DNA of 10,341 nt, taken from a bacterium. Its GTDB lineage: Bacteria > Patescibacteriota > Minisyncoccia > UBA6257 > 2-01-FULL-56-20. Below, one piece after another: positions 2,475 through 6,844 of this stretch. Location: NCBI GenBank assembly GCA_021780545.1, contig JAJXYP010000041.1, positions 1 to 10,341 of the forward strand. The letters run 5' to 3'. Made by a program: the position numbers and the translations under genes. Each line of letters starts with the position of its first letter. Positions within the stretch are counted from its first letter, which is position 1. The notes under the pieces are model-generated. The model was not told the origin of the DNA, searched no databases, and saw nothing but the letters and a program-made list of their open reading frames with translations.

Positions 2475-2503
2475 TTGCGCTTGCGGTATTTATGTGGTAT
2501 TAA
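2475..2503 (+). promoter_or_regulatory. Promoter of the envelope cluster (extended -10)
   Basis: TTGCGC (2475-2480) lies 17 bases before TATTAA (2498-2503), which is directly preceded by TGG. The predicted start near 2510 leaves a leader of about 55 bases before the ATG at 2565. It is the only good promoter-like sequence seen before the four plus-strand genes and nearly mirrors the divergent promoter next to it. Confidence 0.55.
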
Positions 2504-2564
2504 AGGTGCGGGTGTCGTAGTAGTACCTCGACAACCGAATATAGGTAATAAGGAGAAAAAAACT

Positions 2565-3422
2565 ATGAAATCCATTATTGCGGCGGCAATCGCCGTCGCA
2601 TTCCTGGTTCTCTCTGGGCCCGTCTTGGCTCAGAGCCAGCAAACCGGGCAATCGGTAACCGGGGTTACCGGCGTCACGCTGAGTGGTGCTTACGGTACCC
2701 AGAGTACCGGTGGCTACGGCAGGGTTCTCGGCGGGGGAGGTTTTACGGGGACAGATCCCAATTATGCATCCGGCACGGGCAAAACGACCGGGGCAGGAAA
2801 CGGCGGTTTGACGCTCACTCCCACGAGTGCGTCGTCGAATTCAGTCGCCAGCGGGATTTTCACCTCGACGGTCCAAGGGCTGCAATCCGACATTACGTCC
2901 GGTCTCTCTGCGAAGCAGGGGAATTGGGCGTCGGTCGGAAGCGGCAACAACTACGCCAACGGCGGCAACACCACCAACGGCCAAGCGTCCGGATCGGGCG
3001 TCGGGACCAATACGTTTACCGGCGGCGGTAGCGCACTGGCAAACGGTGGGACTACGGCGATCATCAGCCCTGGCGCGTTAACAGCGACGTCCAAGGCGAG
3101 TACGGTTGGCGGTGCCAGCGGCCTGCTGCAGAACCTGAGTTTAAATTCGTCTCAGGCCACCGGGCAGGGTAATGCAAACGTCGGCGCAATCGTTAATCAG
3201 GCGGCCGACTTTTGGGCCGGAGGGTGGGGCGGTGGCTCTGCTGCATTTAGCGGCATGGCACCGACTGCCGATTGCGCAACCGCGGCGACCTGTACGGGAG
3301 CCAGTGGTTCCCTGAGGGTTGATGGCTCCGCCACCGGCACTACTTTGCCGAACGGCGGGGCCTCAGCCGTGACCGTCGTCACCTCGACGGCGCACGGCAG
3401 CGGACCGGGACCTGTACAATAG
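2565..3422 (+). CDS. Secreted Gly/Ser/Thr/Asn-rich protein, first gene of the envelope cluster
   Basis: A 285-residue exported protein of unknown function. Residues 1-22 are a classic signal peptide (MKSIIAAAIAVAFLVLSGPVLA, cut before QS). The rest is low in charge and rich in Gly, Ser, Thr, Ala and Asn, with loose recurring pieces such as VTGVTGVTLSGAYG, YASGTGKTTGAGNGG and GSGNNYANGGNTTNG. This suggests an extended or beta-rich surface or matrix protein. It has only two cysteines, in DCATAATC near residue 240, which could form a small disulfide loop. No known domain was recognised, and no LPXTG or C-terminal anchor is present. The start is the ATG at 2565, with AAGGAG at 2550-2555 and 9-base spacing; an upstream in-frame extension to 2448 would run through the promoter. 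It is followed by an OmpA-like protein 93 bases downstream. Confidence 0.8.
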   Translation: MKSIIAAAIAVAFLVLSGPVLAQSQQTGQSVTGVTGVTLSGAYGTQSTGGYGRVLGGGGFTGTDPNYASGTGKTTGAGNGGLTLTPTSASSNSVASGIFTSTVQGLQSDITSGLSAKQGNWASVGSGNNYANGGNTTNGQASGSGVGTNTFTGGGSALANGGTTAIISPGALTATSKASTVGGASGLLQNLSLNSSQATGQGNANVGAIVNQAADFWAGGWGGGSAAFSGMAPTADCATAATCTGASGSLRVDGSATGTTLPNGGASAVTVVTSTAHGSGPGPVQ

Positions 3423-3439
3423 GTCAGCCGCAAAATAAT

Positions 3440-3473
3440 CCGGGTCCGGCGGCGGAAACGTCGAAGGACCCGG
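3440..3473 (+). other. Intercistronic hairpin between first and second cluster genes
   Basis: An 8-bp perfect stem (CCGGGTCC/GGACCCGG, 3440-3447 and 3466-3473) with an 18-base centre lies between the stop at 3422 and the ATG at 3516. There is no T-tract after it, only a purine-rich leader. It is more likely an mRNA stability or processing element than a terminator. Confidence 0.45.
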
Positions 3474-3515
3474 CAACTGAAACGCCCGGAAAAGGAAAAA
3501 AGAAAGGAAAGGAAA

Positions 3516-4904
3516 ATGAAAGAGAAGAAAGGCCAGGCGTTGATGCGCTTGGCTGTGATGTTCTTGCTTGTGCTGATCGCGGTCACCGGTACCGCCGGAT
3601 TCGCCCAGAGCGGATCTCCCGGCAGTCCTCCGGCGAATAGCACAGGAACGAATGCGGCGGCGCAGGCGAATGCCAACGTCGTATACGCCCCGATAAACAA
3701 TACCGATATACCTCGTCAGTTCGTCGGTGCATTCCCGGGCGTGGCCAATATGCCGGGACCGATGCCGGGCATACCGGTTCAGAACGGCGAGTGGCATATC
3801 TATTGGCCGCCGATGTTTCGGGAGATAACACCCGACATGCTGGATTCCGCGCGGCGCCGGTGGAAGCTGACGGATATTTTCCACGGGTCGGCGCTGAGCG
3901 TCGTTTCCTTCATGCACGGCATACTGCCGCAGCAACCGGGAAGTGTACGTTTGGTCAAATATGATCCAAACGTCATCGCGTATCCAGCGGATCGCCCGAT
4001 CATCAAGGTGACAGTGATAGGCGACTGGAGAAATCCGGAACCGTATCTCTTCGCTGCCATCAATGAGCTTCGGGACCGTAAACACGTGAACCGCGTGGCG
4101 ATTCTCGAGCGCGCGTTGTCGGTGAATAAAACCACCGCTCACAGCTTCGGTCTCGGCGGCAGTTTTGCAAAGTTCTTCTCGCCAGACAACAATGCTGGCG
4201 GGATGGCTATCGGGTTCGAAGGAGGGTCGTCACAGACGCAGCTGTTCGACCCGCACGAGTTCATCGTTATCGGCCTGAACGACGGCCCGGTGGACCCGCC
4301 TCAGCTGCCCGAACCGCCAAAGGAGAAAGCAGCAGCGTCTGGTTCAGCTCCGGCGCCGGCTCAATCGCCGTTGCCGCAGGTGGCTTCCACGCTGCCCGTG
4401 CAAACCATACGCATCGAGGTTGTTCAGGCTCCGCCTACTCTGGCGTCGGTTCCATCGCCGCAACCGCGGCGCGAAGAACCGCCGTCGCAGCCGACGCAGC
4501 AGCAACCGGAAGCGTCCATGGTGCCGCAGGCATCCAGGGCGTCGTCGGTAAGCTGTCAGTTGCCGGAATTAACGGTATACTTCAGGTTCAACGACGCTGA
4601 GGTGTTGCCGGTTTACCGTCCGTCAGTCGCCAAGATGGCGGCGTGGGCCGTCTCTCATCCGGCTTGCGAGCTGGAAATCGAGGGACATGCCGACCGGTGG
4701 GGATCGAACAACTATAACGATACCCTCGGGGAGCGGCGGTCACAAGCGGTTCTACGGCTTCTGGAACAGTATTCCAGCGGCCTGACCCGCGCAAACAATC
4801 GGGTTCGCGCGGCTTCCTTCGGGAAATATTACCCGCAGGGAGAGAACGATGCCCGTAACCGGCGCGTGGTGCTTCACGTTGTCGGATCACGGTCCGGCAG
4901 ATGA
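3516..4904 (+). CDS. Secreted protein with C-terminal OmpA-like domain
   Basis: A 462-residue exported protein. Residues 1-30 are a signal peptide (hydrophobic VMFLLVLIAVTG, cut after GFA). Residues 55-258 form a globular region of no recognised family, with an aromatic start (GEWHIYWPPM) and a Gly-rich block (FGLGGSFAKFF). Residues 259-345 are a Pro/Gln/Ala-rich linker suited to crossing the cell wall. Residues 350-457 are an OmpA-like domain (PF00691 type): VYFRFNDAEV, then EGHADRWGSNNYNDTLGERR, ending in NRRVVLHVV. The Asp of GHAD and the Arg of NRRV match positions that bind diaminopimelate in OmpA/Pal. Cys347 and Cys384, the only cysteines, flank the first strand and helix and could form a disulfide. 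It probably binds peptidoglycan from outside the membrane. The start is an ATG with a purine-rich GGAAAGGAAA leader rather than a full Shine-Dalgarno. Domain call firm; partner unknown. Confidence 0.88.
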   Translation: MKEKKGQALMRLAVMFLLVLIAVTGTAGFAQSGSPGSPPANSTGTNAAAQANANVVYAPINNTDIPRQFVGAFPGVANMPGPMPGIPVQNGEWHIYWPPMFREITPDMLDSARRRWKLTDIFHGSALSVVSFMHGILPQQPGSVRLVKYDPNVIAYPADRPIIKVTVIGDWRNPEPYLFAAINELRDRKHVNRVAILERALSVNKTTAHSFGLGGSFAKFFSPDNNAGGMAIGFEGGSSQTQLFDPHEFIVIGLNDGPVDPPQLPEPPKEKAAASGSAPAPAQSPLPQVASTLPVQTIRIEVVQAPPTLASVPSPQPRREEPPSQPTQQQPEASMVPQASRASSVSCQLPELTVYFRFNDAEVLPVYRPSVAKMAAWAVSHPACELEIEGHADRWGSNNYNDTLGERRSQAVLRLLEQYSSGLTRANNRVRAASFGKYYPQGENDARNRRVVLHVVGSRSGR

Positions 4905-4915
4905 AGATGTTACCA

Positions 4916-4942
4916 GGCCAGCCCGACGTTTTTGGGCTGGCC
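4916..4942 (+). other. Intercistronic hairpin between second and third cluster genes
   Basis: A 9-bp perfect stem (GGCCAGCCC/GGGCTGGCC) with a 9-base loop containing TTTTT begins 11 bases after the stop of the OmpA-like gene. No T-run follows the stem, so full termination is doubtful. It could lower read-through, or protect the upstream mRNA and thereby set gene ratios. Confidence 0.5.
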
Positions 4943-5001
4943 CACCGCGGCCAGCTCATCACTGAAACCGAGAAGAAAGAAGCAAGAAAAGGAGAAAAAG
5001 G

Positions 5002-5811
5002 ATGAAGAAGATGATGATGGTGCTGGCGGCGGTTGTTGTTGTCGCTCCAGGGATGGTAATGACGTTATCGGCGGCGGAGAAGGCTCCGCAGAAGCTGAAC
5101 GTCACGATAGGGGAATATAAAACCGGATTCTACGACGTTGAGGGAGCCGTTAAGGCGCAACTTGACGCCGCAATTGGCCAGATCGACAAACTGGCCGGTA
5201 CCGGGAACGGGAAATTGCAGATTTCTGTCGAGGGGTCCGCAGACGGGACCGGGAAGGATCTCAGAAATCAAGATCTGGCGCTGCAGCGCGCCCAGCAAGC
5301 GGTGGGATACCTCAAGCGGTTCTTCCCACTCGCGGAATTCCCTGAGCCGATATCGGCGGGTAGCTCCTACGGTAAGCGGGTCGTGATCATTCATGTGACA
5401 CGGCTTCCCGTTGCCGGTGCTTCGTATTCGCATTGGAGCGATCGTCGCTTCATCGCGATTTTCACGGTGATCGTCGTGTTGCTGTCGGCGCTATCGACGG
5501 TGTTCGCGGTGAAGATCCGGAAATCGAAATCGTCGCCGGCAGAAATATCGACGGTTTTATTTTCCTGGAATAAGAAGGTCTGGGAAAAGCAGGTTGTGCT
5601 GCGCGAGGGGGGGTACGATGTTGGTCTCACCTCCCGAACCGGAAGGCCGGTGATTCGCGAATCGTTGTCTGATGCAGCGGCGGCGCTGCGAGGCGCAGGA
5701 AAAGATCCCGAATTCCACCAGCAGCTATTGGAAATGGCTGAACGAGGTGAGATCCGGGAGGCAACCGCGGCGCAGCGGGCGAAGAGTCCGAAGGTTGCGA
5801 AGATCGCGTAA
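5002..5811 (+). CDS. Exported OmpA-like domain followed by one membrane helix and a cytoplasmic tail
   Basis: A 269-residue membrane protein. Residues 1-24 are a signal peptide (MKKMMMVLAAVVVV...LSAA). Residues 30-134 are a compact OmpA-like domain: LQISVEGSADGTGKDLRNQD, then LALQRAQQAVGYLKRFF, then GKRVVIIHV, matching the GHTD-x-G, RR-x-xAV and NRRV blocks of the family in diverged form. Asp81 is kept, while the usual GH before it is GS-A. Residues 150-170 form one strong membrane helix (FIAIFTVIVVLLSALSTVFAV) followed by Lys/Arg (KIRKSK), putting the last 97 residues in the cytoplasm. That tail holds SWNKKVWEKQVVLREGGYDV and an acidic/basic helical end, with no known motif. The order is the reverse of MotB or Pal, where the anchor comes first. 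The start has AAGGAG at 4989-4994 with 7-base spacing. The gene lies 97 bases after the previous cluster gene. Confidence 0.82.
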   Translation: MKKMMMVLAAVVVVAPGMVMTLSAAEKAPQKLNVTIGEYKTGFYDVEGAVKAQLDAAIGQIDKLAGTGNGKLQISVEGSADGTGKDLRNQDLALQRAQQAVGYLKRFFPLAEFPEPISAGSSYGKRVVIIHVTRLPVAGASYSHWSDRRFIAIFTVIVVLLSALSTVFAVKIRKSKSSPAEISTVLFSWNKKVWEKQVVLREGGYDVGLTSRTGRPVIRESLSDAAAALRGAGKDPEFHQQLLEMAERGEIREATAAQRAKSPKVAKIA

Positions 5812-5840
5812 GCGCAAAGAGAAAGAGAAAAGGAGAAGAT

Positions 5841-6614
5841 ATGCTCGGAGAAAAACCTCTCGTGAGGTTGACATCGTGGTTTAAAACCAAACCAACCCGC
5901 AGCGAGATATTTTGTGTGTCTATTACAGTGGGGCTGGCGCTTCTGGCCCTATTCGTTTGGGGGGCTATCGTTAATCGGTCCCCGATGATGGGGCACATCC
6001 GTCATCCGGAAACGTTGTCCGGCGTAAATTCGAGGGTTTCGACGCCTGCGGCCGCAAAGCCGTTGGCGAGGGAATCCGTTAGCGCCGGCGCGTCGGTCCA
6101 TGACGTCGCCCAAGCATCCGCTGCATGGGAGGCAAAGCTGCGGCTTGCTCTTGCGCAACCCGGCGATGGAACGGATCGCATCTTCGAGCGGCAGCTCGAA
6201 GAGAACCCTGGCATTGCGGAACATGAAACGTTCGCATACCGGGGAAACCCCAAAGACACTGCCGAAGTCAGACGATGGGCGGTGCATGCCGCCGATCTAG
6301 TTTCCATCGCGGCAGGATTTCGCGATCCCGTCACCGGGCAGGAATTTCGCATTTCCCGGCCGGGGCATGAGTCGTTTGTTCTTGCAAAGACCGCGGCTGG
6401 ACAGTTGACGGTGAATGTTTACACGTTCAAAACCGTTGCTGTCCCCGCTGGCGGCCGTGCGGCGGAAACCGGTTTCGATCCGGTCCCCGTAAGCACGATA
6501 AGTGTCGCGCGGAATCCCGCGCATGGTCAATTCCCGGGTTGGTTGGATAGCGGCGGTCATCCTCCGACTTGGGGAAAGTTGTACATTCCAGGTTTTAACA
6601 GTAAGGGGGGCTAG
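5841..6614 (+). CDS. Single-pass membrane protein, last gene of the envelope cluster
   Basis: A 257-residue protein of no recognised family. Residues 1-22 are short, basic and cytoplasmic. Residues 23-44 form one membrane helix (IFCVSITVGLALLALFVWGAIV). The remaining 210 residues should lie outside, first an Ala/Ser-rich linker (about 45-100) and then a globular part with FERQLEENPGIAEHETFAY, FRDPVTGQEFRISRPGHESFVLA and a Pro/Gly-rich end (WLDSGGHPPTWGKLYIPGF). There is one cysteine, inside the helix, and no catalytic motif was seen. The start ATG has AAGGAG at 5830-5835 with 5-base spacing and lies only 29 bases after the preceding stop, so the two are almost certainly co-transcribed. It may be the inner-membrane partner of the two OmpA-like proteins; this is inferred from position and topology only. 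Confidence 0.78.
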   Translation: MLGEKPLVRLTSWFKTKPTRSEIFCVSITVGLALLALFVWGAIVNRSPMMGHIRHPETLSGVNSRVSTPAAAKPLARESVSAGASVHDVAQASAAWEAKLRLALAQPGDGTDRIFERQLEENPGIAEHETFAYRGNPKDTAEVRRWAVHAADLVSIAAGFRDPVTGQEFRISRPGHESFVLAKTAAGQLTVNVYTFKTVAVPAGGRAAETGFDPVPVSTISVARNPAHGQFPGWLDSGGHPPTWGKLYIPGFNSKGG

Positions 6615-6810
6615 GAAGGACTTAACACCCATCCAAACCAGCCCCCTTCGCATTCGTATTCAACTTACGGTCTACATCTGAAGGCAGCTGCTCAATTGAG
6701 CGCTGAAAACGAAGGATCAACTGAACCTTTGCTTGCTTCGTCAATTGACGGGCATGCCGCTCAAATGGGCGCCTCTCGGATGTACAACCGCGGTCAATGC
6801 GATTCGCACG
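6615..6810 (+). other. Gene-free 3' region with repeated TCAATTGA dyads
   Basis: No supported gene lies between the stop at 6614 and the terminator at 6811. The stretch holds two perfect 12-bp palindromes, GCTCAATTGAGC (6690-6701) and CGTCAATTGACG (6739-6750), plus related imperfect copies (TCAACTGA 6717-6724, TCAAATGG 6761-6768, TCAATGCG 6794-6801). The first four cores lie 25, 24 and 20 bases apart. A short inverted repeat (GGGGGCT 6606-6612 with AGCCCCC 6640-6646) surrounds the stop codon of the last cluster gene. The stretch may be a long 3' UTR, a small RNA or a protein-binding array. Confidence 0.45.
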
Positions 6811-6839
6811 AAGGGACGCTTAACAGCGCCCCTTTTTTT
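6811..6839 (+). terminator. Intrinsic terminator of the envelope cluster
   Basis: AAGGG and CGCT pair with AGCG and CCCTT (6811-6834; one A-C mismatch between the two helices, TAAC loop), followed directly by five more Ts. It lies about 200 bases past the last plus-strand gene, and no other plus-strand gene lies between. Confidence 0.8.
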
Positions 6840-6844
6840 GTTTA

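Follow-up and report, generated by a model that had tools for sequence, protein, structure and literature searches.

A Patescibacterial gene cluster in which a domain shared with proteins of sortase loci is joined to a Pal-like OmpA domain

Introduction

The described systems closest to the locus presented here are sortase loci that carry LPxTG-type surface proteins, and wall binders of the Pal/OmpA-like family (PF00691). According to PMC6744442, a sortase family occurs in over half of the genomes of the Candidate Phyla Radiation (CPR), and a DUF4012 family is linked to envelope polysaccharide; sortase is mentioned briefly for these bacteria in two further papers (PMC4736985, PMC5220378). The subject of this report is a cluster of four genes (ORF1 to ORF4) on contig JAJXYP010000041.1 of a bacterium of the Patescibacteriota (assembly GCA_021780545.1). 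This contig was analysed as a whole (G000:C7, 10,341 nt) and is referred to as the window. The draft genome to which it belongs (G000) amounts to 0.68 Mb and is 83% complete.

The cluster resembles sortase/LPxTG loci through the N-terminal domain of ORF2 (N-domain), relatives of which lie beside a sortase and low-complexity LPxTG-type proteins. However, the window genome and locus give no sortase match, ORF1 bears no sorting signal, and ORF2 carries an OmpA-like domain instead. With the Pal/OmpA-like family it shares the C-terminus of ORF2 and the orthologue of ORF3 in a second genus (genome G046), both of which exceed the Pfam gathering cut-off. Unlike members of that family, ORF2 joins its OmpA domain to an N-domain that has no family entry, and no lipobox is seen by eye. 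PdsO (TIGR03789), of the proteobacterial dedicated sortase system, is likewise OmpA-like and, by the name of its model, sortase-associated, and it matches residues 330-454 of ORF2 (E 6.1e-10). Yet ORF2 reaches only 39.2 bits against a cut-off of 152.2 bits, the match covers the OmpA region only, and no sortase lies beside ORF2.

Results

Relatives of the ORF2 N-domain lie in sortase loci

ORF1 and a full-length ORF2 occur in the same four of the 38 genomes of the window's family (G000, G044, G046 and G047), hereafter the window type. The N-domain of ORF2 comprises about 200 residues. A four-row profile of this domain, searched against 383 genomes of the class, matched three further genomes (E 9.8e-18, 3.5e-11 and 7.4e-10). 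With seven rows, the profile matched eight genomes (two already known) out of 18 from the family to which one of these three belongs and, in a sample of the phylum, two of 379 genomes, both already known. Alignments of the window-type N-domains and of those found in sortase loci (sortase type) were made separately, and hhalign matched them with a probability of 99.74% over 180 columns (E 4.8e-27). Outside the window's family, the N-domain relatives amount to nine loci in two other families of the class.

In all nine loci a sortase lies just upstream of the ORF2 relative (directly adjacent in eight; one is cut by the contig start). These sortases were assigned by similarity to that of locus L072, the sole one scanned, which matched PF04203 at 79.9 bits vs a cut-off of 26.6 bits; its best class model was that of class D, which scored below its own cut-off. 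Three sortase-type genomes were tested, and each gave exactly one sortase match, inside this locus. In the L072 sortase (L072:9734-10591), a TSP3-type (calcium-binding) repeat precedes the catalytic domain, at 25.6 vs a cut-off of 25.

One or two low-complexity LPxTG-type proteins are present upstream in eight of the nine loci, the ninth being cut there. They end in LPATG, LPASG, VPATG, APNTG or a similar motif. Of the 12 proteins, 11 also have a hydrophobic segment at the C-terminus, and the twelfth has the motif alone. The protein downstream of the ORF2 relative has a second, membrane-type segment in eight loci (the ninth is cut), and an N-terminal segment as well in seven of these eight. 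Further along, ORFs similar to those of L072 encode Wzz-like proteins (8/9), rmlB-like proteins (eight loci) and DUF4012 proteins (five loci), and an HtrA-like ORF lies on the other side of the locus in 7/9. The names Wzz, rml and HtrA were given by eye; in L072, Pfam confirmed the sortase and DUF4012 and returned nothing for the Wzz-like protein. The sortase-type ORF2 relatives carry two to six Cys within their last 150 residues, and none of the nine matches the window-type OmpA profile at E 10.

Tracts shared between ORF2 relatives and LPxTG-type proteins

In the sortase type, the ORF2 relative carries, after its signal peptide, a tract similar to the LPxTG-type protein of its own locus. The score exceeded that of each of 40 shuffles in all 12 comparisons, narrowly so for L073 (31.2 vs 28.5 bits). 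An 8 x 8 comparison was made from which the cut locus L091 was omitted and in which the better of the two LPxTG-type proteins was taken where two exist. The own-locus protein was the best match in seven of eight rows and six of eight columns; the exception among the rows is the tract of L072, which prefers the LPxTG-type protein of its close relative L090. Summed over the eight loci, none of the other 40,320 possible pairings scored as high as the own-locus pairing, which is itself one of that number. Moreover, in 8/8 the own LPxTG-type protein scored above the ORF2 tract of any other locus. Simple descent fails to explain this match, because the ORF2 relatives of L093 and L095 are close over the rest of the protein (308 bits) and differ in their tracts. 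Gene conversion or selection for co-assembly could be the source of the matched tracts.

Window-type ORF2 carries a Pal-like OmpA domain

The OmpA domain of ORF2 scores 42 bits against PF00691 (cut-off 27.2 bits). Among solved structures it matches OmpA-family lipoproteins and Pal best, with E values from 5e-22 to 3e-19. D393 and R408, the expected Asp and Arg of the peptidoglycan (diaminopimelate, DAP) site, are invariant in all four orthologues. From its OmpA family membership and these conserved residues, ORF2 is predicted to bind peptidoglycan.

No match to PF04203 was obtained in G044, G045 (a family member with ORF3 and ORF4, see below), G046 or the window genome, where absence from the genome is not final at 83% completeness. 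One sortase match was found in G047, on a contig other than that of the cluster, and two in G050, a family member without ORF2. In all four window-type genomes ORF1 has N-terminal hydrophobic segments only, with no LPxTG-type end or C-terminal helix.

A search of 5.8 billion proteins listed, besides the query, three ORF2 matches, all OmpA-bearing and covering 22-36% of ORF2. The same search returned no relative of ORF3 or ORF4. Absence from it carries little weight, since it requires shared exact words and, for ORF2, scored candidates up to a cap. A fifth ORF2 match in the window's family (G024) and the PHROG match of ORF2 are confined to the OmpA part. A viral origin was rejected, no ORF2 relative being found among viral contigs (the phage collection was not searched), and so was a plasmid origin: 12 plasmid records matched, and the eight listed match the OmpA region alone. 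In L022 and L023 (G028 and G024, from different families), a C-terminal OmpA domain is borne by an ABC-type substrate-binding-like protein (by eye), beside a permease-like gene.

Structure models of the N-domain

The structure model of full-length ORF2 (4 rows) was poor (pLDDT 49), and that of the N-domain reached a pTM of 0.60. Structural matches to viral spike domains were discarded as low-score noise. Two other functions of the N-domain were considered. In the first, ORF2 would combine an N-domain like the envelope proteins RcsF and FvfA with a peptidoglycan-binding tether and sense the state of the wall, the predicted cytoplasmic tail of ORF3 would signal to the cytoplasm, and ORF1 would be a secreted output or ligand. 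Such an envelope-stress sensor appears unlikely. No sequence match between the FvfA/RcsF fold and ORF2 was found, and the structure score is within the range of common arrangements.

In the second, a Gly-rich hairpin of the N-domain would oligomerise into a CsgG- or TraT-like ring that extrudes or nucleates a low-complexity polymer. Inspection by eye shows a Gly/Ser-rich pair of strands in the 13 N-domains, and TraT decamer chains hold Foldseek ranks 3 and 8. However, these TraT rows have E values of 0.25 and 0.29 with a TM of about 0.1, and the pLDDT of the hairpin is 34-43. No CsgG or curlin family was found in Pfam scans of ORF1-4 or of the scanned sortase-type proteins. Moreover, Patescibacteria are taken to be monoderm, and no outer membrane is expected. 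An export or assembly pore is thus very unlikely.

Topology and relatives of the four products

Hydropathy of the window proteins detected a single N-terminal segment in ORF1, ORF2 and ORF4 and two segments in ORF3 (residues 1-26 and 146-174). All four products look exported or membrane-bound, as an earlier note on this DNA had claimed. In the ORF2 orthologues of G046 and G047 no segment exceeds the same threshold, and the starts are signal-peptide-like by eye. ORF1 contains 21% Gly, 14% Ala, 13% Thr and 13% Ser and has no second hydrophobic segment. Pfam, NCBIfam and PHROGs gave no name for ORF1, ORF4 or the ORF2 N-domain. The earlier note had matched none of the four to a named system by eye, and no named system covers all four genes. 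The same note described two OmpA-like proteins of different architecture. This holds for ORF2; ORF3 of the window scores 21.8 bits, below the PF00691 cut-off, whereas its orthologue in G046 scores 43.1 bits, above it, and has a Ser at the position expected to be Asp. The OmpA part of ORF3 precedes the membrane helix, the reverse of the order in MotB.

The ectodomain of ORF4 recurs in larger proteins of ten genomes from two other families of the order (L027-L036; L096-L099), with open frames of 468-1167 aa, the shortest of which has an internal stop. No Pfam match was obtained in the four of these proteins that were scanned. In the neighbourhoods of four of the ten genes, inspected by eye, only a small upstream protein is common, in two of them. 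A LysM identity of the ORF4 domain, suggested by its motif, was rejected: ORF4 has no Pfam LysM match, and hhalign gave a probability of 1.3% between 12 ORF4 domains and 13 LysM domains from relatives.

Conservation of the cluster

The four-gene cluster is repeated in G046, from a second genus, in the order ORF1-ORF2-ORF3-ORF4 and with flanks different from those of the cluster in the window. A 1376-aa repetitive surface-type protein, with a peptidoglycan-binding-like C-terminal domain by eye, flanks the G046 cluster (L013:105-4235, minus strand). In G044 (75% complete) and G047 (96% complete), ORF1 and ORF2 are followed by a membrane-protease-like gene, and searches found neither ORF3 nor ORF4. 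Conversely, G045 has ORF3 and ORF4; its contig opens inside ORF3, hence ORF1 and ORF2 at that site are beyond judging, and neither was found when the G045 genome was searched. ORF3 adjoins ORF4 in both G046 and G045 (pairwise E 1.4e-11 and 5.7e-4). With the window sequence of ORF4, matches were found in these two genomes, together with a doubtful one in G020 (E 0.017, internal stop). A three-row profile of ORF3 was run against 244 genomes of the order; beyond the rows it was built from, it gave four weak matches (E 0.001-0.004) and no convincing relative. Pairwise homology exceeded 25 shuffles for every pair of ORF2, ORF3 and ORF4 and for five of six pairs of ORF1, the exception being the window vs G044.

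That the four genes work as one unit, as had been suggested, is supported by the order kept in G046. In G044 and G047, however, ORF1 and ORF2 occur with no ORF3 or ORF4 found. The four genes are therefore better regarded as two pairs that are in part found apart, which speaks in part against the earlier note. A zinc-ribbon gene that had been noted as diverging from the cluster was not retained: its protein has no tblastn match (E <= 1) in seven stretches around other cluster copies. The MscS-like protein of the window likewise has no match in stretches around other copies, and both are therefore placed outside the set.

These data also bear on the possibility that ORF2 and ORF3 are ordinary peptidoglycan binders (Pal/Rv0899-like) for wall maintenance, merely adjacent and forming no joint machine. 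OmpA domains are common wall binders, the flanks of the cluster include RlpA-like and MscS-like proteins, and the ORF1-2 and ORF3-4 pairs can occur apart. On the other hand, ORF1 and ORF2 co-occur in 4/4 genomes and ORF3 and ORF4 in 3/3 (one cut at the contig start), the full order is repeated in another genus within different flanks, and the ORF2 relatives are tied to a surface-protein sortase locus. We consider simple adjacency of wall-maintenance proteins rather unlikely.

Organization of the locus

Table 1. Coordinates of the cluster features in the window.
Feature	Position	Strand	Description
ORF1	2565..3422	+	285 aa, low-complexity; signal-peptide-like start; no sorting signal, no C-terminal helix
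ORF2	3516..4904	+	signal-peptide-like start; then a short low-complexity tract, the conserved N-domain, a Pro-rich linker and, at the C-terminus, a Pal-like OmpA domain
ORF2 N-domain	3681..4310	+	homologous to proteins of sortase loci in two other families
ORF2 OmpA domain (residues 355-449)	4578..4862	+	Pfam match and solved structures
ORF3	5002..5811	+	signal-peptide-like start, degenerate OmpA-like ectodomain, helix 146-174, tail of ~95 residues predicted cytoplasmic
ORF4	5841..6614	+	N-terminal membrane helix 20-46, ectodomain with GEG..RQL..W motif
Terminator-like hairpin after ORF4	6810..6839	+	hairpin 6810-6835 with one stem mismatch, into 7 U

The gaps between ORF1 and ORF2, ORF2 and ORF3, and ORF3 and ORF4 are 93, 97 and 29 nt, and ribosome-binding-site-like sequences are present. 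ORF1 probably begins at the ATG at 2565, which is preceded by AAGGAG; a longer frame is open from 2448. The single terminator reported by the earlier note was found again. The 51-nt stretch folds at -15.5 kcal/mol, a value equalled by 4 of 200 shuffles, and the hairpin was not listed by a separate scan of the window, probably owing to its stem mismatch. The single promoter-like sequence fared less well: sites at 2412 and 2428 lie just upstream of the cluster, but the window holds five such sites vs 4.4 expected, which is chance level. About 195 nt without an obvious gene (6615-6809) separate ORF4 from the terminator, and nothing in Rfam matches this stretch at the gathering threshold. The minus strand ahead of the cluster carries genes for a Gln-rich protein of low complexity whose start is hydrophobic (351-1271) and for the RlpA-like protein (1455-1952; 91.7 vs a cut-off of 82.15).

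Discussion

We propose that the cluster encodes a small cell-surface structure, in which ORF2 serves as the adaptor that sits on the wall and takes up a low-complexity surface polymer. Here it would be anchored by its OmpA domain, whereas elsewhere it would belong to a sortase system. This proposal is tentative, and we put it somewhat short of an even chance. ORF1 would be the secreted low-complexity filament or coat protein, and the N-domain of ORF2 would act on this surface polymer, possibly by binding ORF1. The proline-rich linker may span the thickness of the wall. The OmpA domain, through non-covalent binding of peptidoglycan, would provide the anchor where the locus has no sortase, and ORF3 and ORF4 may be accessory membrane proteins through which the wall-bound complex is linked to the membrane. 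In the two other families, the same N-domain belongs to a sortase locus from which OmpA is absent, and the LPxTG-type protein is presumably fixed covalently. The earlier note had viewed the cluster as a trans-envelope assembly or surface-appendage anchor. The sortase and LPxTG-type genes near the ORF2 relatives support a role at the surface or in wall anchoring, but a trans-envelope machine is not supported.

Several observations weigh against the wall-bound adaptor. ORF1 has no recognisable fold or family, and the OmpA-type set is rare and patchy and may be dispensable. In the window type, the N-terminal tract of ORF2 resembles ORF1 no better than it does shuffled versions of ORF1. In the four genomes 57, 9, 60 and 88 of 100 shuffled ORF1 sequences scored as high, and tract sharing between ORF1 and ORF2 was rejected for this type. 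Neither the ORF4 domain nor a relative of ORF1 was found in the sortase loci; homology of ORF1 to the LPxTG-type proteins was rejected, as its profile matched no listed ORF of the nine loci (E 0.01). Homology of ORF3 to the exported single-helix protein at the same position in the sortase loci was also rejected (hhalign probability 0.7%). A previous match of an 'ORF3tail' profile was circular, because the profile had been built with two of these proteins among its rows, and the likeness of ORF3 to the downstream sortase-locus protein is one of position and topology only. Finally, the LPxTG ends were assigned by motif, and neither of the two proteins scanned reached the cut-offs of the curated anchor models (15.3 vs 15.9; 13.8 and 13.5 vs 20).

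Life on other cells is frequent among Patescibacteria, and knowledge of how their surface is built is scant. What is new here is a domain family that neither Pfam nor NCBIfam lists, and its link to a sortase locus in which the surface proteins are cognate. A further form has no sortase in its locus and employs OmpA domains, although its lineage is taken to be without an outer membrane. Excerpts of the open-licence literature contained no description of this locus, its adaptor, the cognate tracts or the OmpA form. It is possible, though on balance doubtful, that these loci represent a family of surface-polymer systems built on one adaptor domain with exchangeable wall attachment, by sortase and LPxTG-type proteins with shared tracts in two families and by a non-covalent OmpA tether, alongside a sortase-free low-complexity protein, in a third. 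In the sortase type, the tracts of adaptor and polymer change together locus by locus, as those of co-assembling partners would.

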